From NCBI RefSeq assembly GCF_000429565.1, contig NZ_AUCC01000008.1, positions 1 to 64,000 of the forward strand: DNA of 64,000 nucleotides. Reading direction: 5' to 3'. Source of the DNA: Arsenophonus nasoniae DSM 15247 (GTDB taxonomy: Bacteria; Pseudomonadota; Gammaproteobacteria; Enterobacterales; Enterobacteriaceae). A model generated the notes under the pieces. That model saw only the letters and a list, made by a program, of their open reading frames with translations. It searched no databases and was not told the origin of the DNA. Positions within the stretch are counted from its first letter, which is position 1. The number at the start of each line of letters is the position of its first letter. The translations under genes and the position numbers were made by a program. Below, one piece after another: positions 372-9,507 of this stretch.

Positions 372-1139
372 ATGCAGCAACATTTTTTACCCATACTGCC
401 CTGGATAGGCGGTAAACGGCGGCTGGCCAAACAGATTTTACCGCGCTTCCCGGCGCATATCTGCTACGTGGAACCGTTTTGTGGCGCGGCGGCGCTCTTT
501 TTTATGAAGTCACCCAGCAAAGCAGAAGTGATTAACGATATCAACGGCGAGCTGGTCAATCTCTATCGGGTGCTGAAACACCATCTGGAAGAGTTTATGC
601 GCCAGTTTAAATGGGCGCTGGTCAGCCGGGCGATGTATCAATGGTTAAACATCACGCCGACCGAGACCTTAACCGATATCCAGCGCGCAGCCCGTTTCTA
701 TTACCTGCAAAAGCAGGCGTTCGGCGGCAAGGTGGCGGAGCACACCTTTGGCGTGACCACTACCAGTGGGCCACGCTTGAACCTGCTACGCATGGAAGAA
801 GAGCTGTCGCTCGCCCATCTGCGATTATCACGCACCACCATTGAACACCTGGATTGGGCCAGCTGTATTGCCCGTTATGACCGTCCGCACACGCTGTTTT
901 ACTGCGACCCGCCGTATTGGGGAACGGAAGGCTATGGGGTGGATTTTGGTCTGGATCAATATGAAAAACTGGCGGGAATGGGACGAGACCTGACGGGGAT
1001 GATGATTATTTCGGTCAATGATATTCCTGAAATGCGGGAAGTGTTTCAGGGGTTCGAGATGGAGAGCGTCCCGATTCGTTATAGCCTCAATAGCAATCAG
1101 CCCACCCAACGGCGTGAGCTGATTATCACTGTCAAATAA
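372..1139 (+). CDS. Phage DNA adenine methylase (D12 class, Dam-like)
   Basis: A 255-residue protein of the D12-class N6-adenine methyltransferase family. The SAM-binding region is near the N-terminus (PWIGGKRRLAKQI, with YVEPFCG about 20 residues later), and the catalytic DPPYWG motif lies near residue 180. The open frame extends upstream to 201, but family similarity begins at this ATG. Such enzymes in phages methylate GATC-type sites, either to evade host restriction or to control phage promoters. It is transcribed towards the repressor gene, with only 32 nt between their stop codons. Family assignment is firm; the target sequence is not deducible. Confidence 0.88.
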   Translation: MQQHFLPILPWIGGKRRLAKQILPRFPAHICYVEPFCGAAALFFMKSPSKAEVINDINGELVNLYRVLKHHLEEFMRQFKWALVSRAMYQWLNITPTETLTDIQRAARFYYLQKQAFGGKVAEHTFGVTTTSGPRLNLLRMEEELSLAHLRLSRTTIEHLDWASCIARYDRPHTLFYCDPPYWGTEGYGVDFGLDQYEKLAGMGRDLTGMMIISVNDIPEMREVFQGFEMESVPIRYSLNSNQPTQRRELIITVK

Positions 1140-1171: not shown

Positions 1172-2208
1172 TTAAGCGCGGTGACGAGTGGCTTTTTTCT
1201 CTGCCATTGCCGTCAAGGTACGTTTGGCCACTTCGCGTGTTTCGCCGGGAATATGGCGAAAGGCCGTTAACACCTCAGCCTCTTCTTCATCCCTCACCAC
1301 ATCGAGCGCACTGGCTTCATCGTGGCGCTCACCGGTCATCACATAATTAAGATCGACTCCTAACGCTTTCGCGGCGATTAAGTAGCCCGCATCAGGATGC
1401 CGCTCACTTTTTTCATAGTTGTACTGAGTGAGCTTTTTAACCCCGCACCGTTCGGCAAAGATCTCCTGGCTAAGTCCCAATCGCAGTCGCTCAGATTTGA
1501 GACGGTCTCCCACTCCTTCTAGTGTTAGTGTCACCCACTGCTGGGTATCGAGTGAGGCCTGTTCATTGCTTGTAGTCGCTGTAGAGGTCTTTCCAGTCAG
1601 TTGCTGGCTTAACTGTTGTAACTGCTTCTCTTTTTCGGCTACCAGTTGCTGGCTGCGTTTAAGCGCCGCTTCATCTTTACGTAATGCTGCCCGTAATTCC
1701 CGTACCGACATCCGGTCAACTTCGTCGAGGGTCAGACCTGCGATAGTGCCGCCTTCGGCGAGTTCAGCGAGGTCTTCATCGTCTTCCAACATCAGCTCAT
1801 AGAGTTTTGCCTTGCCGAGAGCCGCAAACGTCTGCGCTTTTCCACCTAATTGAGGTGATAAATATTTTAGAGATGCCTTCATCATAATTTGAGCGGTTCT
1901 TTCAGCTAGCCCTAACTGGCTTGTTACGATATTTACAAACTCTCCATGCGGCTCATTCTCTTTCAGAATAATCAACCGCTTTCCCGCCTCCAGCATGGCT
2001 TCGGCACTCTGTGCCATATAGAAGCGCGCTTCATGCACAATCCTCTCCCGTTCATAGGGCAGCCCATCGCCAAAACGTGCCATCACCTCCTGCTGGGCAC
2101 TGTTTGCTGCATTTTTTTCAGGATATGCAATTGCCTCCCCCCCCCCGCAATCGTGATATTGTCCGCGGTAGTTACAGGCAGGCTGGTTGCCGCTTTTTTC
2201 TTTGCCAT
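1172..2208 (-). CDS. Prophage repressor-like protein, frameshifted at a G tract
   Basis: A good ribosome site (AGGAG) precedes the ATG at 2208, which starts MAKKKAATSLPVTTADNIT. This frame runs into a run of ten G on the coding strand (plus-strand C at 2137-2146) and soon meets a stop. With one extra G it joins the long downstream frame, which encodes a DUF3102 domain, a charged coiled-coil and a C-terminal Xre/Cro helix-turn-helix (RLRLGLSQEIFAERCGVKK). An ATG at 2083 could start a shorter 304-residue protein, but its AGGAGG is only 2 nt away. Position and domains fit the lysogeny repressor of a Mu-like phage. Either the tract is phase-variable, the gene is broken, or the homopolymer is misread. 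Confidence 0.75.
1797..2002 (-). repeat. Inverted repeat arm 1 (206 bp, inside repressor gene)
   Basis: Read on the minus strand, this segment matches 3161-3366 of the plus strand with one mismatch in 206 bases by eye. Just outside, the similarity of the two genes drops to roughly 87 percent with mostly silent changes. The sharp step in identity indicates recent gene conversion or inversion between the arms. Confidence 0.85.
2137..2146. repeat. Homopolymer of ten C (G tract in repressor gene)
   Basis: Ten consecutive C on the plus strand form a G tract about 20 codons into the repressor gene. Ten bases leave the upstream start out of frame with the rest of the gene, and eleven would restore it. 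Such tracts are classic slipped-strand mutation sites. Confidence 0.9.
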
Positions 2209-2285
2209 ACAGGTCTCCTTTAGGCCGATAACAGCCCGTGCTTTTTAATAGTGATAAGGAATATACAAAAACAAACAAAAAAGAC

Positions 2286-2315
2286 TTTACATCATTTTGC
2301 ATATCAATGTATATT
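2286..2315 (+). promoter_or_regulatory. Candidate early promoter of the prophage
   Basis: In the AT-rich gap between the divergent repressor and first early gene, TTTACA (2286-2291) and TATATT (2310-2315) are separated by 18 bp, a good sigma-70 arrangement pointing into the early operon. The repressor promoter must lie in the same gap, so operators are expected here. Not tested. Confidence 0.5.
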
Positions 2316-2347
2316 TATTTTTAACTTTTTATGACGGAGATAAAACA

Positions 2348-2581
2348 ATGTCACTGCAACATCCAGCCGACTTTAAGCGCAATTTTTATGACCGTGTCTA
2401 TCAGAACTACCCGACGGTGGCGGCGTGGGCGCGCCAATCCGGCTTCAAACCCTATCAGGTTTATATGTTGCTTGATGGCTCCTGCCAGGGCTGGCGCGGG
2501 GAAGCACGCAAAATCAAACAGGCGATTGAACAGATAATGGGTTCCCCCATGCCATCGGGCAAAAAGCGCCATAAAAAATAA
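2348..2581 (+). CDS. Small basic Ner/Cro-like phage regulator
   Basis: A 77-residue protein, first gene of the early operon, with GGAG 8 nt before the ATG. The central part (VAAWARQSGFKPYQVYMLLDG) looks like a helix-turn-helix and the tail is Lys/Arg-rich (SGKKRHKK). Its place directly after the divergent repressor is that of Ner in Mu, which turns down the early and repressor promoters. Sequence similarity to Ner itself is not obvious, so the role is inferred from position and size. Confidence 0.55.
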   Translation: MSLQHPADFKRNFYDRVYQNYPTVAAWARQSGFKPYQVYMLLDGSCQGWRGEARKIKQAIEQIMGSPMPSGKKRHKK

Positions 2582-2638
2582 CATTCGCCTGTTTCGCTGA
2601 CGGTATCACAATTTCCATTAATGAAAAAGAGGCATCCG

Positions 2639-2959
2639 ATGAAAAACACCTTATTACTGCACCCATCTTCACGTACACGACGGGCGCTGCGTATTTTAAA
2701 AGCCATGAAGGGGCATTACCGAGACGGCTTGTCCAATAAAGCCCTGGCGGCGCTTATCAATGACTCCCCGGCCAATATCAGTCGTACTCTGCCATTTTTA
2801 GTCGAAGAGGGCATGGTTGAGCAGCGCTTCAATGGGAACTACGCCCTCAGCGAGGAATTGATACAGATTGCGCTAGCCTTTTTCGATGAAACCGAACGGG
2901 CGCAAATCAAGATGGCAGAAAAACGTGGCCGCTGCATAGCCTCACCGTCAAAATTGTAA
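2639..2959 (+). CDS. Winged-helix transcriptional regulator, phage
   Basis: A 106-residue protein. The ATG at 2639 is chosen over the one at 2621 because AAGAGG lies 6 nt before it. Residues 12 to 75 resemble an IclR/MarR-type winged helix: a first helix (RRALRILKAMKG), a recognition segment (NKALAALINDSPANISRTLPFLVEEGMV) and a wing (QRFNGNYALSEE). The likely role is early gene control. It ends 12 nt before the next gene and is part of the same operon. Confidence 0.6.
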   Translation: MKNTLLLHPSSRTRRALRILKAMKGHYRDGLSNKALAALINDSPANISRTLPFLVEEGMVEQRFNGNYALSEELIQIALAFFDETERAQIKMAEKRGRCIASPSKL

Positions 2960-2971
2960 GAGAGAAAAATA

Positions 2972-3925
2972 ATGGGTAGAAAAGCGTTACCGATGACGGC
3001 TGAAATCACCCCCGAACAGCCTTTGGCACCGGATTTAATGAATAACCTTAACGCGCTAGCTGAACATCAGCAGGCCATTATGGACAAGTACGGCGAGGGC
3101 CTACCCTATGAACGGGAAAGGATTGTGCATGAGGCACGTTTCTATATGGCACAAAGTGCGGAAGCCATGCTGGAGGCGGGAAAGCGGTTGATTATTCTGA
3201 AAGAGAATGAGCCGCATGGAGAGTTTGTAAATATCGTAACAAGCCAGTTAGGGCTAGCTGAAAGAACCACTCAAATTATGATGAAGGCATCTCTAAAATA
3301 TTTATCACCTCAATTAGGTGGAAAAGCGCAGACGTTTGCGGCTCTCGGCAAGGCAAAACTCTATGAACTGATGTTAGAAGACGATGAAGACCTCGCCGAA
3401 CTCGCCGAAGGCGGCACCATCGCGGGCTTGACGCTCGATGAGGTTGATCGCATGTCGGTACGTGAACTAAAGGCAAAACTGCGCGAAACCCGTGATAGCT
3501 TGGAAGCCAGCCGCCGCCTAGCCAACGAAAAAGACCAAAAAATCAATGAGCTGAGTGAAAACCGCCTGCTTAATCAGCATCGCCCGTTAGGGGAAGAAGG
3601 CATACGCCAGCTCCGTGAAGAAATCGGCCTGGTGGGCTTTGATGTTAAAGCCATATTGATGGGGCGCTTTCGGGAAGGGTTGGAAAAATTGCATAGCCAC
3701 AGTGGCGATATGACGTCTCACGCCGACTATTTAGCAGGCTTGCTTAATGATATTGAGTTTGAAATCAATGTCTTACGTAACGACTTTGCGTTACCCTACC
3801 ACGCGGTGTCAGAGGCGGTACCTGACTGGGTAAAGGCGGATGCCGAGGCCGAAGACGCGGATTTTCAGTTACCTGAACATTTACGCGGTACCGGACAGGA
3901 TAGCGGCGAGGAGGGGGTGTTATGA
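2972..3925 (+). CDS. DUF3102-domain phage protein
   Basis: A 317-residue protein whose residues about 43 to 165 form a DUF3102 domain nearly identical to the one in the leftward repressor gene. After it come a charged coiled-coil region (about 165 to 200) and a distinct C-terminal part with no helix-turn-helix that I recognise. Related proteins sit directly before the transposase in some Mu-like phages, and their function is unknown to me. Its stop overlaps the transposase start (ATGA at 3922), so the two are translationally coupled. Confidence 0.7.
   Translation: MGRKALPMTAEITPEQPLAPDLMNNLNALAEHQQAIMDKYGEGLPYERERIVHEARFYMAQSAEAMLEAGKRLIILKENEPHGEFVNIVTSQLGLAERTTQIMMKASLKYLSPQLGGKAQTFAALGKAKLYELMLEDDEDLAELAEGGTIAGLTLDEVDRMSVRELKAKLRETRDSLEASRRLANEKDQKINELSENRLLNQHRPLGEEGIRQLREEIGLVGFDVKAILMGRFREGLEKLHSHSGDMTSHADYLAGLLNDIEFEINVLRNDFALPYHAVSEAVPDWVKADAEAEDADFQLPEHLRGTGQDSGEEGVL
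3161..3366 (+). repeat. Inverted repeat arm 2 (206 bp, inside DUF3102 gene)
   Basis: Partner of the arm at 1797-2002, in opposite orientation and in the same reading frame of the shared DUF3102 domain. The single difference (near 3270) changes one residue (Thr here, Ala in the other copy). Recombination between the arms would flip the segment 2003-3160 without breaking either reading frame. Confidence 0.85.
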
Positions 3926-5709
3926 ACGCCATCCTGACCGAACGCGTACTGGCGATTGCCCAGGCCGCCGAAAAAGCCGGACATGGCGGCAAAGACGCGG
4001 TTTATCAAACAGGTTGCCAGGCACTCGGCATTTCCAAAGCCACGCTACTGCGAAAAATCAAACAGGTAAGCTATAAACCGCCGCGCAAGCAACGGGTGGA
4101 TTGTGGCACCAGCGCCCTGACCCGTGAGGAAGCGCTGCAAATATCCGGCGTGATGATGGCCTCGCATCGCAAGAACGGCAAGCGCCTTTACAGCCTGGAG
4201 CAGGCGGTTAATGACCTGCGGGTGAACAACCTAATTAATGCTGGGTATATTGATAACGAGACCGGCGAGTGGTTCCCCCTGTCGGTCGATGCCATCAGTC
4301 GGGCGTTGTACCAATATCGCCTGCACCCCAACCAGTTACGGGCACCAGCCCCGTGCGTCCAGTTAAAAACCGAGCATCCCAATCATGTCTGGCAACTGGA
4401 TGCGTCGCTGTGTGTACTCTATTACCTGAAAAATCCCGCCCAAGGGCACACCACGCGCGATAGTGGCCTGCGCATGATGAGTGAGGCGGAGTTTAACAAG
4501 AACAAGCCAAAAAATCTGGCGCGGGTGATTAACGACCGCGTCTGGTCATTTGAGCTGACCGACCATACCAGCGGCTGGATTTATGCCGAGTACCGCTTTG
4601 GCGGCGAAACGACACAAAACTTTACCGATGTGCTGATTAACGCCATGCAAGAACGCGGTGGGGCCGACGTCCTGCATGGCGTGCCGCGCATCCTTTATAC
4701 CGACCCCGGTTGCGCGCTGGTCTCGTCCACCCTGCGCAACCTGTGTAAAACCCTTGGTATTCAACTTATCGCACACAAAGCCCGTAATGCCCGCGCCACC
4801 GGCTCAGTGGAAAAAGCGCGCGACATTCTCGAGTGCCATTTTGAATCCGGGCTGCGGTTTGTGCAAGTCAATCATATTGATGAACTGAACCGCCTGGTTG
4901 GATTGTGGCGTAAAAAGTATAACCGCACCGCGCTGCATCGCCGTACCGGCATGACTCGCACCGACTGCTGGCTGCATATTACCCCTGGACAGTTAATCAA
5001 GGCACCGCCTGTTGACGTATGCCGTGAGCTGGCGGTGAGCCAGCCGGAAAACCGTAAGGTTAGCACCCACCTTCGCGTGTCGTTCAGGGGGAGTGAATAC
5101 GATGTACGGCAAGTCCCCGGCGTTTGCGTGGGCGACACCGTACAGATAGTGCGTAACCCCTGGCGTGACAGTGAGGCGCAGGTGGTCGTGATTAATGAGG
5201 ACGGACTGGAAGTCTTTTGCCGGGTGCCGGAAGTGGCGAAAGACGACTACGGTTTTGCCCTCAACAGCCCGACACTCGGCGAATCGTTCAAGGCATTACC
5301 CCACACCCCGGCGCAACACCATCTGTCGGAAGTCGAGCAGACCCTGTATGGCACCACCACGCCGGGGGAAACCGCCGCCGCGCAAAAAGCCAATGCCTTA
5401 CCCTTTGGTGGGCGCTTTAACCCTTATCTGGAAAATGAACGCGATACCCCACCGATTTATCTCCCTAAACAAGGGCAGGCCTCCCCGGTTTGCGCGCCGC
5501 GTTTTGAAGAGCGCTTAAACCCGGTCGTGGTGGTGCAACAGTTGCGGGCGCGTTTTCAGGCGGCGGGTAAGACCTGGCGCAGTGAATTTTACACCACACT
5601 AACCCAGCGCTTCCCGGACGGCATTCCCGCCGACCAGGTCGACGCGCTGGGTGATGAATTAATGGCGCAGACGGGCGATGTGGTGGTCAGCCTGGCCAGT
5701 CACGGTTAA
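3922..5709 (+). CDS. A: Phage transposase A (MuA/TnsB-like DDE integrase)
   Basis: A 595-residue transposase of the rve/Mu family. The DDE acidic residues are visible: Asp in VWQLDAS (about residue 158), Asp in YTDPG (about 254) and Glu in GSVEKARD (about 295). An N-terminal helix-turn-helix-like region (GCQALGISKATLLRKIKQ) should bind the phage ends, and a beta-barrel plus tail region follows the catalytic core. It performs strand transfer of the phage ends with ATPase B, encoded 12 nt downstream. The length is close to that of MuA (663) and of BcepMu-type enzymes. All catalytic residues are present, so it looks intact. Confidence 0.92.
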   Translation: MNAILTERVLAIAQAAEKAGHGGKDAVYQTGCQALGISKATLLRKIKQVSYKPPRKQRVDCGTSALTREEALQISGVMMASHRKNGKRLYSLEQAVNDLRVNNLINAGYIDNETGEWFPLSVDAISRALYQYRLHPNQLRAPAPCVQLKTEHPNHVWQLDASLCVLYYLKNPAQGHTTRDSGLRMMSEAEFNKNKPKNLARVINDRVWSFELTDHTSGWIYAEYRFGGETTQNFTDVLINAMQERGGADVLHGVPRILYTDPGCALVSSTLRNLCKTLGIQLIAHKARNARATGSVEKARDILECHFESGLRFVQVNHIDELNRLVGLWRKKYNRTALHRRTGMTRTDCWLHITPGQLIKAPPVDVCRELAVSQPENRKVSTHLRVSFRGSEYDVRQVPGVCVGDTVQIVRNPWRDSEAQVVVINEDGLEVFCRVPEVAKDDYGFALNSPTLGESFKALPHTPAQHHLSEVEQTLYGTTTPGETAAAQKANALPFGGRFNPYLENERDTPPIYLPKQGQASPVCAPRFEERLNPVVVVQQLRARFQAAGKTWRSEFYTTLTQRFPDGIPADQVDALGDELMAQTGDVVVSLASHG

Positions 5710-5721
5710 CGGGAGGCCATC

Positions 5722-6876
5722 ATGCTGAAACTGAAAACCCTGTTACAACAACACAACCTGACGCAAGCGGCACTGGCCCGCGCGCTTGACCTTTCCGAGG
5801 CGACGCTGGCGCAGATAGTCAATCACCACCAGTGGCCAAAACAGGACACCGACACGCTAAAACACCGTATCCGTGCCTGGTTACGTGACCAGGGTATCGC
5901 GGCGGACGACTGTTTTGACGGGGTCACGTCCGGCGGAAAGGAAAAACGCCCACTACCTAGCAATGAGGAAGACACCATGTTACTGAAAAAACAGGTATTA
6001 CTGCCTGCCACCAAAAAACATTTTGGGCTGTTTCGCGCTCCATTTGATGACAACGCAGTACAAGGTCATGACGATGTGTTTTTAACCCCGGAAAGCCGTT
6101 ATGTGCGTGAGGCGTTGTACCAGACCGCCCGCTATGGTGGCTTTATCGCCGTTATCGGTGAATCCGGCTCGGGTAAAAGCACGCTGCGACGTGACCTGAC
6201 GGACCGCATTTATCGGGAAAACGCCCCCGTGGTGGTGATTGAACCCTACGTGCTGGCGATGGAAGACAACGACCATCAGGGCAAGACCCTGAAAGCCGCC
6301 AGCCTTGCCGAGGCTATTGTCCATACCCTAGCCCCACTGGAAAAGCTCAAACGCTCGCCGGAGGCCCGCTTCCGTCAGTTACACCGACTATTAAAAGACA
6401 GCAGCCGCGCCGGGTACAGCCATGTGCTGGTGATTGAAGAAGCCCATTCTCTGCCCATCCCGACCTTAAAGCACCTCAAACGCTTCTTTGAGTTGGAAGA
6501 CGGCTTTAAAAAACTGCTGTCCATCGTCCTGCTGGGACAACCCGAACTGGGTGACAAGTTATCTGAACGCCTGCTGGCGGTCAGGGAAGTGGTGCAGCGC
6601 TGCGAGGTGATTGACCTGCCGCCGCTGGATGACCACCTGGCTGACTTTCTTGATTTCAAGTTTAAACGCGTCGGCGGCGACCTTGGCAACGTCCTCGGCC
6701 CGGATGCGATACCGGCACTGCGTCAACGCCTAAGCTGGCTGCGCCCGAAAAAAGACACCCCGGTCAGCCTGCTTTATCCCCTGGCTATCGGCAATCTGGT
6801 GACCGCTGCCATGAACCTGGCCGCACAAAACGCCATCCCGGTTATCGATGCCAATATTATTCACAGTGTGCATTAA
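5722..6876 (+). CDS. B: Phage transposition protein B (AAA+ ATPase)
   Basis: A 384-residue MuB-like target-selection ATPase. The N-terminus has a helix-turn-helix (NLTQAALARALDLSEATLAQI, residues about 12 to 32). The AAA+ core has Walker A GESGSGKST near residue 150 and Walker B VLVIEEAH near residue 236, and resembles ExeA/TniB ATPases. MuB forms filaments on target DNA and delivers it to the transposase. A strong GGAGG precedes the ATG, and the gene follows transposase A by 12 nt. Confidence 0.9.
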   Translation: MLKLKTLLQQHNLTQAALARALDLSEATLAQIVNHHQWPKQDTDTLKHRIRAWLRDQGIAADDCFDGVTSGGKEKRPLPSNEEDTMLLKKQVLLPATKKHFGLFRAPFDDNAVQGHDDVFLTPESRYVREALYQTARYGGFIAVIGESGSGKSTLRRDLTDRIYRENAPVVVIEPYVLAMEDNDHQGKTLKAASLAEAIVHTLAPLEKLKRSPEARFRQLHRLLKDSSRAGYSHVLVIEEAHSLPIPTLKHLKRFFELEDGFKKLLSIVLLGQPELGDKLSERLLAVREVVQRCEVIDLPPLDDHLADFLDFKFKRVGGDLGNVLGPDAIPALRQRLSWLRPKKDTPVSLLYPLAIGNLVTAAMNLAAQNAIPVIDANIIHSVH

Positions 6877-7456: not shown

Positions 7457-7987
7457 ATGGCAAAGAAAATAACGCGGCTTAAAGCCGCGGCGGGTGCCTG
7501 CACGCCGCAAACCCGTGAACAGGTGATGGACGATATAAAACGGATGGGTGATATCCAGCGGGAAATGACCCGACTAGAGACACAGATTAATGATGAAATC
7601 GCACGGTTAACGCATCAGCATGCGGCTGATATTGAGGCCATGAAAGCCCGGATAACCCTGTTACAAAAAGGTATCCAGACCTGGTGCGACGCCAACCGAG
7701 AGGGGCTGACCCAAAACGGAAAAACCAAAACCGTTAACCTGATAACCGGCGAGGTGTCGTGGCGAAACCGCCCGCCGTCCGTGTCCCTCAAAGGGATGGA
7801 CGATATCTTGCAGGCACTGGAAGAAAACGGGCAACACCACTGCATTATTCGCAAGGCGCAGGTGGATAAAAATGCCCTGCTAAAAAATCAGGATACCATC
7901 AGGCACCTTAATATTCGCGGCATTACCTTTCATCACCAGCTTGAGGATTTCATTATTACGCCCTTCGAGCAGGAGGTGACCTCATGA
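7457..7987 (+). CDS. gam: Host-nuclease inhibitor Gam (Mu Gam family)
   Basis: A 176-residue protein with the long N-terminal coiled-coil of Mu Gam (residues about 20 to 80, MGDIQREMTRLETQINDEIA) and the conserved module around GKTKTVNLITGEVSWRNRPP. Gam binds double-stranded DNA ends and protects linear phage DNA from RecBCD. It is homologous to eukaryotic Ku. Length matches Mu Gam (174). It sits between B and gemA as in Mu, and its stop overlaps the start of the next gene. Confidence 0.9.
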   Translation: MAKKITRLKAAAGACTPQTREQVMDDIKRMGDIQREMTRLETQINDEIARLTHQHAADIEAMKARITLLQKGIQTWCDANREGLTQNGKTKTVNLITGEVSWRNRPPSVSLKGMDDILQALEENGQHHCIIRKAQVDKNALLKNQDTIRHLNIRGITFHHQLEDFIITPFEQEVTS

Positions 7988-8154
7988 GCTATCAGGAAAT
8001 AAAACCTCTGCGCCGTCAGATTGAAAGGCACATAAACCGCGCCATGCATCACCTGCGGGCAGACCATTCCGCCGCTGCGTATTGTGAATTTCAAAATGCC
8101 TTCGAGATATTGGCCGAACTCATCGTCGACTTAGATAAGGAAAACCCGTTATGA
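7984..8154 (+). CDS. Small phage protein, 56 aa, unknown
   Basis: A short frame starting MSYQEIKPLRRQIERHINRA, coupled at both ends: ATGA overlap with Gam upstream and ATGA overlap with the zinc-ribbon gene downstream. It is predicted to be almost entirely alpha-helical. Double coupling and phage-like codon use support it as real. The function is unknown. Confidence 0.55.
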   Translation: MSYQEIKPLRRQIERHINRAMHHLRADHSAAAYCEFQNAFEILAELIVDLDKENPL

Positions 8155-8384
8155 GTATTACCTGCATCAGCTGCCATCAGGCAACCCGACGCCTGAATCC
8201 TACCCAGGCAGACATTATCCAACAACCGGAAAGCGGCGAGTGGGGAATTGACCTGCTACTGGCCTGCCCACACTGCGGACAGTCGTATAGCGCCTGGGTA
8301 CTTAACTGGGATGTCGTGCCACTAAAAGGTATCACGGCAAATTCGCCATCAACGCCACACACTCACCATAAACCCGCCGATTAA
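8151..8384 (+). CDS. Zinc-ribbon-like small phage protein
   Basis: A 77-residue protein with two Cys pairs, CISC near the N-terminus and CPHC near residue 41, spaced as in a four-Cys zinc ribbon. The C-terminal tail is rich in Pro and His (STPHTHHKPAD). Such small ribbons often bind DNA or RNA polymerase. The role is unknown. It is coupled to the previous gene by an ATGA overlap. Confidence 0.55.
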   Translation: MSITCISCHQATRRLNPTQADIIQQPESGEWGIDLLLACPHCGQSYSAWVLNWDVVPLKGITANSPSTPHTHHKPAD

Positions 8385-8400
8385 CGAGGAGGACATCACC

Positions 8401-8580
8401 ATGTGGATATTAATTTTGGCCATGTACGCCAGTCCTTATAGCGATAATGCCTTTTCCACTCTGCATACACAGGAATTTGACACGGAAACCGCCTGTCAAC
8501 AGGCCGCCAGACTGTTTGCGAAAAAATTTGAAACCTTCAAGGATATTGATGCCAGGGCAATTTGCGTGAAGAAGTCATAG
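8401..8580 (+). CDS. Small secreted or membrane phage protein, 59 aa
   Basis: A short frame (MWILILAMYASPYSDNAFST...) with a consensus AGGAGG ribosome site 9 nt upstream. The hydrophobic start could be a weak signal. Two Cys (positions 35 and 56) could pair. It resembles the small DUF1482-type phage proteins in layout (MWxLxL... then a C-terminal ICVK), but I am not sure of that family. Confidence 0.5.
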   Translation: MWILILAMYASPYSDNAFSTLHTQEFDTETACQQAARLFAKKFETFKDIDARAICVKKS

Positions 8581-8633
8581 CGGAAAAGCGGCATGTAAAT
8601 CATTCAATTGTATAATAACGCTATTCATTTTAT

Positions 8634-8662
8634 AATCCTTCAAAACCCGAAGGATTATTTTT
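8634..8662 (+). terminator. Intrinsic terminator or attenuator in early operon
   Basis: Stem AATCCTTC (8634-8641) with GAAGGATT (8649-8656), a 7-nt loop, then a T-rich tail. It lies between the small-protein block and gemA, so it would stop or reduce early transcription before gemA and mor unless antiterminated. The AT-rich stretch before it (8606-8635) could hold another promoter. Confidence 0.6.
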
Positions 8663-8716
8663 TGCTCACTGCATAAGGAACCCTGACCCCGACCACAACG
8701 ATAAAGGAAGCCTCCG

Positions 8717-9139
8717 ATGACCCGACAAAAGTACCTGCAGTTAATCCATATTGGCGCCCACAATCTCAAGCTGGACGACACGACTTACCGCCAGATGCTG
8801 CACAGGCTAACCGGGAAAACATCGGCAAAAGCCCTGAATATCGGTCAACTGGCTCAGGTGTTAAACGCCCTGAAAGCCAAAGGCTTCCGCATCCAACCCC
8901 ATCACGCCAATACAAAAAAGCAGACTGACCGTCCGCAAATCCAAAAAATACAGGCCCTGTGGCAGGCAATGGCTCACGAGGGCATTGTCCGTGATGGGTC
9001 AGCAACAGCCCTGGCCCACTTTGTTAAACGGGAAACCGTCTGTGATTCGCCTTACTGGCTAGATAACCAACAGGCCAGCCAGGTTATCGAGAAACTCAAG
9101 CAGTGGCAAAAACGCGTGGCGAGGGCAACATCATGCTAG
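8717..9139 (+). CDS. gemA: GemA/Gp16 family phage regulator
   Basis: A 140-residue member of the Mu Gp16/GemA family, recognised from MTRQKYLQLIHIGAHNLKLDDTTYR at the N-terminus and the C-terminal WLDNQQASQVIEKLKQW. In Mu, GemA modulates host gene expression and DNA supercoiling. A GGAAG ribosome site precedes the ATG. The stop overlaps the start of the mor-like gene by 7 nt, so the two are coupled. Confidence 0.82.
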   Translation: MTRQKYLQLIHIGAHNLKLDDTTYRQMLHRLTGKTSAKALNIGQLAQVLNALKAKGFRIQPHHANTKKQTDRPQIQKIQALWQAMAHEGIVRDGSATALAHFVKRETVCDSPYWLDNQQASQVIEKLKQWQKRVARATSC

Positions 9140-9507
9140 AGAATACCTTTCGTAGCAAAGGGCCGGAGTTACTGGTTGAGCTGGCCGAACACACCGCCCA
9201 GACCGTCAGGCAGATTATCGACGTTGACCCCGCCGTTGCCAGCCAGATAGGCGATGCCGTCGCCAGTCAGATGATGGCGGTCTGGGGTGGGCAAAACGTC
9301 TATTTTCCGATGGGCCTGATATGGAAAGTCAGCCAGCGTGACCGGGAGATATTTGCCGACTTCAACGGTCATAACCACCACGCGCTGGCGCGTAAATACA
9401 AAGTCTCGCTACAGTGGATTTATTCCGTGGTGAAGCGGGTAAAAAAAGAAGAACTGGCCCGCATCCAGGGCAATCTGTTTGAAGATGAAGATAAGCCGCC
9501 TCGATGA
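9133..9507 (+). CDS. mor: Mor-like middle transcription activator
   Basis: A 124-residue protein of the Mor/C activator family. The dimerisation part includes NVYFPMG, and the C-terminal helix-turn-helix reads HNHHALARKYKVSLQWIYSVVK. Mor activates the middle promoter in Mu. The ATG at 9133 is chosen because GAGGG lies before it and similarity begins there. It is the last gene of the recognisable phage operon. No C or lysis genes follow, so the regulated late block must lie elsewhere, probably left of the window, or be lost. Confidence 0.85.
   Translation: MLENTFRSKGPELLVELAEHTAQTVRQIIDVDPAVASQIGDAVASQMMAVWGGQNVYFPMGLIWKVSQRDREIFADFNGHNHHALARKYKVSLQWIYSVVKRVKKEELARIQGNLFEDEDKPPR

Follow-up and report, generated by a model that had tools for sequence, protein, structure and literature searches.

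Matched inverted copies of a putative DNA-recognition cassette in the repressor gene and an early gene of a B3/Mu-type prophage of Arsenophonus nasoniae

We analyzed a 64,000-nucleotide stretch of Arsenophonus nasoniae DSM 15247 (contig NZ_AUCC01000008.1, positions 1 to 64,000; hereafter the window), focusing on a near-identical inverted repeat whose arms lie in the repressor gene and in an early gene of a prophage. The contig is 78 kb long, of which the window covers the first 64 kb, and the draft genome comprises 3.67 Mb in 296 contigs. According to Pfam and PHROGs assignments, the first ~9.5 kb of the window represent the early end of a prophage of B3/Mu type: genes for an rve transposase, the AAA ATPase B, Gam, GemA and a Mor-type protein lie in one operon, the gene set by which transposable phages of this type are recognized. 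In 4-kb steps, the G+C content is 51-55% up to 8 kb and 25-43% further on. The genes and features of the locus are the following:

1172-2208, minus strand: repressor gene of the fused type, encoding a DUF3102 DNA-binding domain, a linker and a Cro/cI-type helix-turn-helix; a G10 tract breaks the frame near the start
2348-2581, plus strand: Ner-like helix-turn-helix gene (phrog_925; BcepMu_gp16 family)
2639-2959, plus strand: IclR-type helix-turn-helix early regulator (Pfam, PHROGs)
2972-3925, plus strand: early gene encoding a DUF3102 protein (phrog_1748), directly 5' of the transposase gene
3922-5709, plus strand: transposase A (rve; Pfam, PHROGs)
5722-6876, plus strand: transposition protein B (AAA ATPase; Pfam, PHROGs)
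7457-9507, plus strand: genes for Gam (7457), GemA (8717) and Mor (9103), the remainder of the B3/Mu-type early operon
1797-2002, minus strand: left arm of the near-identical inverted repeat, repressor copy
3161-3366, plus strand: right arm of the near-identical inverted repeat, early-gene copy
1820-1939, minus strand: variable cassette core, repressor copy (equivalent to early residues 85-124)
3224-3343, plus strand: variable cassette core, early copy (residues 85-124)
1862-1903, minus strand: predicted recognition-helix codons (97-110 in early numbering; AlphaFold2 model), repressor copy
3260-3301, plus strand: predicted recognition-helix codons 97-110 (AlphaFold2 model), early copy
1820-1839: intragenic palindrome, copy in the repressor gene (7/10 pairs in the window phage)
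3324-3343: intragenic palindrome, copy in the early gene
2137-2146, minus strand: G10 tract at codon ~22 of the repressor

A gene for a D12-class adenine DNA methyltransferase (366-1139) adjoins the repressor gene, and the same neighbour is present in phages KP12 and PhiKM.

The two arms are indeed near-identical, with 205 of 206 positions matching; the sole mismatch, at 1894, encodes Ala in the repressor and Thr in the early protein. The original prediction had given the flanks a match of about 87%. The step in identity was reproduced, although the measured values are slightly lower (93/109 over 1688-1796 and 73/93 over 2003-2095), and arms and flanks together form one 408-bp inverted repeat. 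At the flank rate (36/202), ~37 mismatches per 206 bases would be expected, so that the single one observed is far beyond chance. Position x pairs with 5163-x, and the register is offset by 96 bases between the genes. The copies share their reading frame, as had been stated, and inversion would therefore leave both frames open; the likely start of the repressor, however, is out of frame through the G10 tract. The front half of the repressor is a second, inverted copy of the DUF3102 domain of the early gene, and its Cro/cI-type tail shares 37% identity with the phage B3 repressor across 82 residues. Judged by its place and this tail, the leftward gene is the phage repressor. Passages of PMC9936078 describe the gene at the same place in phage Fc02 as an immunity repressor, identified with a temperature-sensitive mutant.

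The fused type was found in seven IMG/VR records (L058, L064, L059, L063 and L060-L062). Since L058 and the window agree in all of 9,455 bases, L064 is nearly identical to the window, and L060-L062 are three prophages of one genome, these records represent four lineages. In L061, parts of the genes for Dam and transposase A are missing (compared to window positions 709-933 and 4225-4525), and this prophage is probably defective. Among 80 early-gene loci, an inverted second copy is present in seven, always in the same orientation, and one copy was found in 73, including two whose upstream sequence permits no judgement or only a partial one on a second copy (L082 with 208 bases and L090 with 1,839). 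Phages KP12, PhiKM and B3 have a short stand-alone helix-turn-helix protein at the repressor place, lacking both the DUF3102 domain and a long inverted repeat. Of 392 genomes of the family, 36 match the repressor (E 1e-10); among the candidates scored, a match running from domain to tail occurs, beside the window's own genome, only in G047. This genome, from another genus, carries two decayed prophages with broken fused repressors (L179 5876-6763 and L180 7477-8286), next to both of which the early gene is apparently lost. Searches of 369 genomes of the class gave 11 matches including the window's own, with no fusion apparent in the match table. When 84,980 species genomes were scanned for the repressor linker and tail, with only two peptide patterns that distant fusions would escape, six loci were found, none with a DUF3102 domain inside the locus. 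No close DNA match was found in plasmid records, and at least 80% of the fused repressor was covered in 0/64 matching annotated phage records and 0/69 matching plasmid records.

Within each fused phage the two cores match, and between phages they differ. Mismatch-free tracts between the copies measure 257, 356 and 230 bp in three lineages, while the window has 108+97 bp on the two sides of a single mismatch. Core identity is 97-100% within a phage in all four lineages and 37-80% between phages, compared to mostly 80-97%, with dips to 63%, for flanks of the same gene (30-base windows). Over 9.9 kb of four prophages, indels aside, the two cores are the deep dips found in all six pairs. Single lineages show extra dips, for example to 64% in the Ner-like gene of L063, which is 64-79% identical to the window at 2429-2578 between neighbours of ~90% and may represent a second specificity swap. 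Differences between repressor and early copies outside the domain are common to at least two lineages in 13/15 and 43/71 distinct cases and fixed in all four in 7/15 and 20/71; inside the domain, 13/69 are common to at least two lineages and 0/69 are fixed. The copies are more alike within than between genomes, silent sites included, which is the pattern of concerted evolution by gene conversion, and the matched cores are best described in these terms. The suggestion of a recent exchange between the arms is thereby borne out, and comparison of the sequences gives good support to gene conversion as its form. Alternatively, matched cassettes could have been imported as a pair from other fused phages without any exchange inside one genome. 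Phage mosaicism is strong here and would allow it, but the tract ends differ per lineage, silent sites match too, and a source pair would itself need homogenising; we regard this explanation as improbable.

The original prediction had proposed an invertible genetic switch, in which recombination between the arms flips 2003-3160 and swaps promoters and gene tails. The length, near-identity, inverted orientation and shared frame of the arms speak for it, and such repeats can recombine by RecA. Serine recombinase (PF00239) genes are present in two of five fused records searched (G196:C1:748-1146 and G197:C1:28427-28825) and in 0/2 single-copy records. Their distance from the repressor is ~25 kb in G196 and ~11 kb in G197, and no site-specific recombinase is found among ten scanned prophage proteins of the window; as a guess, the enzymes of G196 and G197 might be tail-fibre invertases. 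However, all seven fused records, which are assemblies, have the same orientation, an outcome that the original prediction itself took as favouring gene conversion. Marker sites outside or near the domain edges kept the type of their own gene at 10/10 positions in the window, 10/10 in L023, 10/14 in L024 and 10/11 in L026. Altogether, 40/45 are gene-true, 5/45 have one type in both genes and none is swapped, which means that no net inversion is seen. In addition, the core also varies in one-copy relatives without any repeat. The switch is unsupported by these data, and we consider it very improbable, although inversion may occur rarely within a population.

This variation was examined in a set of 57 phages (53 single-copy and 4 fused). 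Of the 80 loci, 62 were entered and 18 omitted by eye as likely duplicates; one was dropped for a stop codon, removal of near-duplicates left 56, and the window was added. The variation of residues 85-124 of the early protein is largely uncoupled from that of their flanks, with a median core identity of 0.53-0.57 throughout flank identities of 0.70-0.95. Single-copy phages form 128 pairs whose transposases are identical at 90% or more, and in 100 of these pairs the core identity is below 80%. Aligned in this way, the genes carry a hypervariable core between conserved flanks, exchanged between phages largely apart from the rest of the early region. As a candidate partner, another gene co-varying with the cassette was sought among segments of IclR, transposase A and transposase B (56 phages each), GemA (42) and Dam (31) and rejected, as partial correlations reached at most 0.31 compared to 0.78-0.90 inside the core. 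Nor did the cassette follow the type of the stand-alone repressor: at a transposase identity of at least 0.90, alike repressors occurred in 5/28 core-alike and 13/100 core-unlike pairs.

Because no nearby gene tracked the core, we searched for a site inside the core itself. A gapless palindrome lies at a fixed place starting in codon 118, just 3' of the recognition-helix codons. It is 20-26 bp long and, with its flanks, the 26-bp type reads CAAAA-N5-..-CG-..-N5-TTTTG. In 45 of the 57 phages, the core contains an exact inverted repeat longer than synonymous-codon redraws give (p<0.05, 60 redraws each). The longest such repeat stands at the fixed place in 52/57, and elsewhere in the window, L059, L063, L127 and L134. 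In the single-copy phages the fixed place shows 10/10 pairs in 38/53 and at least seven pairs in 53/53. Allowing up to three mismatches, single-copy phages have one site per locus and the four fused phages two. Whole single-copy records of 35-43 kb have one site place each (4/4), the fused record of L059 has two sites, and the 3.67-Mb draft genome of the window has exactly two matches at up to three mismatches, 1820-1839 and 3324-3343.

The palindrome changes between phages yet stays palindromic, as a comparison of 54 distinct rows at 13 pairs with 500 shuffles illustrates, in which the counted cells are sequences and not events. Paired bases occupy 95.4% of the cells versus 77.6% after shuffling, and 106 cells are changed on both sides versus 31.7; neither value is reached in any of the 500 shuffles. 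The covariation score is 0.428 versus 0.126 (0/500), and slid controls stay at or below 0.067. The pair around the central two bases also covaries (G-C in 32 and A-T in 20 of the 54 rows), which speaks for a site in double-stranded DNA, as opposed to a hairpin in RNA. The arrangement of AAAA, GC-rich stem and TTTT in many phages might suggest that the palindrome serves the early transcript as an RNA hairpin or weak terminator and is no protein site. Such a hairpin would have no loop, and the covariation next to the centre would be useless to one with a 2-base loop. Moreover, base identity follows the recognition-helix residues, and in a scan of the window alone its palindrome, which is imperfect there, is absent from the terminator-like hits. 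We therefore give this explanation hardly any credence.

The bases of the site go with residues of the recognition helix. Outside the site's own codons, mutual information with the half-site is highest at residues 96, 102, 101, 97, 90, 86 and 99, while N-terminal flank residues have a mean z of 0.46. Residue 102 corresponds to half-site position 7 (Arg with C in 29/29; Ile, Leu, Val, Lys or Met with A in 27/27), residue 101 to position 4 (Gln with C in 34/34, Arg with G in 14/14, Val, Ala or His with T in 8/8) and residue 99 to position 6 (Thr with C in 41/42, Ile or Ala with A in 11/12, Val with T in 3/3). The window fits this code, with Thr99, Gln101 and Ile102 beside AAGCGCA. The minimum number of changes per residue or base is 5-7 on a core tree built without residues 96-102 and 7-18 on a flank tree. 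With phages of identical residues 84-112 left out, five residues predict the exact 6-base half-site in 39/57, compared to 21/57 for 82 flank residues, 12/57 for the commonest type and at most 18/57 in 200 permutations. For an out-of-sample test, four records that the first set contained were excluded and 68 loci submitted; hits were obtained for 58, one of which stopped short of the site, and removal of repeated or known cassettes left 32 new ones. The palindrome is present with at least seven pairs in 23/32, where the code is correct at 58/63 testable positions (65/86 over all 32), many of these cassettes having site types already in the first set. One half-site type new to the first set was found in the DUF3102 gene of phage B3, with a perfect 10/10 palindrome (NC_006548.1 7896-7915; L005 4738-4757).

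The early protein matches phrog_1748 over residues 1-296, and DUF3102 is its only Pfam assignment, below the curated cut-off. Its AlphaFold2 model has a mean predicted local distance difference test score (pLDDT) of 76.6, with blocks of 72-88 over residues 81-130, and contains predicted helices at 82-92 and 97-110. The DNA-binding domains of ParB, Spo0J and Noc recur among the structural matches (Z 5.2-7.0), and the arm is predicted to encode a ParB/Noc-like helix-turn-helix. A PDB sequence search found nothing at E below 0.1. Passages of PMC7383237 report that the ParB recognition helix enters a palindromic site and that four residues set the ParB/Noc specificity. From the position of the palindrome and its covariation with the helix residues, we infer that it is the site recognized by the cassette's own helix-turn-helix.

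In the fused subgroup, the repressor gene holds an inverted copy of the domain, and the cores were matched in every phage compared. The likely start of the repressor, the ATG at 2208-2206 behind AAGGAG, is kept together with the ribosome site in 7/7 fused records and, in the window, is out of frame with the rest owing to the tract at 2137-2146. The seven records have runs of G10, G12, G12, G7, G8, G7 and G13, and the frame is intact in the G8 copy alone. For the window, L023 and L026, the shifted frame ends at a TGATG that overlaps an in-frame repressor ATG. The tract may phase-vary the repressor; the length differences may also be sequencing errors, as may be suspected from the six indels that separate two prophages of the same genome and from two additional G in the tract of the record nearly identical to the window. 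In the whole genome G000, G or C runs of at least nine occur at only eight places, all eight being C on the contig forward strand.

The fusion could also be a neutral duplication, homogenised by chance through conversion without functional meaning. Its function is deduced from sequence, the two older-looking copies in G047 have decayed, and the repressor start is out of frame in the window, all of which this explanation would accommodate. However, linker and tail are 89-93% identical in protein among the four lineages, and both copies hold the same site. We consider a neutral duplication unlikely.

Our preferred reading, to which we assign a probability of roughly 0.7, is that the arms are two copies of a key-and-lock DNA-recognition cassette, matched by exchange, with the repressor acting by blocking. 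The helix-turn-helix would bind the palindrome as a dimer, so that one recombination between the conserved flanks would alter the protein along with its site. A new cassette would be copied into the other gene of a fused phage by homologous exchange between its inverted arms (gene conversion), and repressor and early protein would share their target. The following steps are the least certain. The DUF3102 domain of the repressor might sit on the two intragenic sites, 1.5 kb apart and flanking the divergent promoters, and the bound repressor might stop read-through into the transposase genes and compete with the early protein, while its Cro-type tail might act at the promoters. We further lean towards a more general view of a self-contained cassette of ~120 bases (helix codons plus site) that is re-keyed by one crossover in the flanks, copied in inverted orientation into the repressor and retuned by arm exchange; a change of cassette may found a new immunity or compatibility group, and the natural variants would spell out a code.

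Several observations weigh against this reading. Of the four fused lineages, only one has a perfect palindrome: the window shows 7/10 pairs, and the remaining three show 8, 8 and 10. In the covariation test, the number of pairs changed on both sides was 8 versus 6.3 after shuffling, a value reached by 14/500 shuffles, and that of further pair types was 15 versus 13.1, reached by 72/500. Nine of the 32 new out-of-sample cassettes have no palindrome: eight belong to more distant DUF3102 proteins, and the ninth is L194, whose match length suggests a frameshift. In the 23 palindrome-bearing ones the code is wrong at 5/63 positions. Its residue-base pairs were selected after viewing a sorted list, residues and site are co-inherited in one cassette, so that their association is partly common descent, and the 57 phages amount to far fewer independent events. 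At flank identities of at least 0.95 the cores are mostly alike (median 0.91 in 30 pairs, lowest 0.50). In single-copy phages the cassettes are unlinked to repressor type, so that matching to the repressor is no general need. In this assembly the likely start and the remainder of the repressor are in different frames, and the structure model of the repressor is poor (pLDDT 53.6). As for the fold, Raf1 scores as high as or higher than the ParB group, up to Z 7.6; Z values below 8 may reflect a common arrangement, which makes the match to ParB/Noc suggestive only, and with Foldseek alone no match in the PDB was obtained at E 0.001.

If the proposed reading is true, it explains how specificity can change without breaking the match of protein and site, both travelling in ~120 bases. 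The natural pairs would then represent a protein-DNA recognition code, and the fused repressor would follow the specificity of the early protein by DNA exchange. It also proposes a function for the DUF3102 proteins located 5' of the transposase in these transposable phages.

Passages of PMC3564109 describe transposable phages of P. aeruginosa as having modular genomes in which some individual genes are composite. These passages contain no mention of this gene, the palindrome or matched copies. Among the matches listed in our literature search there was likewise no description of the palindrome or cassette; the B3 genome paper itself was not looked for. RepC of the B3-type phage Fc02, as described in passages of PMC9936078, agrees with the repressor studied here in its place beside ner and the early promoter and in its Cro/cI-type helix-turn-helix. 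The proteins of B3, KP12 and PhiKM differ in being short, stand-alone and without a DUF3102 domain.

In switches of the Din family (Gin/Hin), inverted repeats surround a promoter-bearing segment. Here, inverted repeats also flank a segment with promoters. In contrast, the arms are coding and 206-356 bp long, only one orientation is seen, and the site is present once in single-copy relatives.

The similarity to ParB/Noc and their parS/NBS sites comprises the predicted helix-turn-helix arrangement and a dimer-type palindrome, and few interface residues appear to set specificity, as passages of PMC7383237 describe for ParB/Noc. Here, however, site and protein vary together in one exchangeable cassette, with one site per record in the four single-copy records searched. 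Pfam detected no CTPase domain and no ParA among the ten early-region proteins, as would belong to ParB-type partition; the late region lies off the contig. An intragenic site has a counterpart in B. subtilis, where a parS site lies within the spo0J gene.

The repressor c and the transposase MuA of phage Mu have a common DNA-binding domain for the operator/enhancer. In the fused phages, too, a repressor and a protein of the early transposition operon have a common DNA-binding domain and probably a common target. The present arrangement differs from that of Mu in that the domain belongs to another family and the early partner is a separate protein encoded 5' of the transposase, and in that the sites lie inside the genes and their sharing would be upheld by recent DNA exchange.

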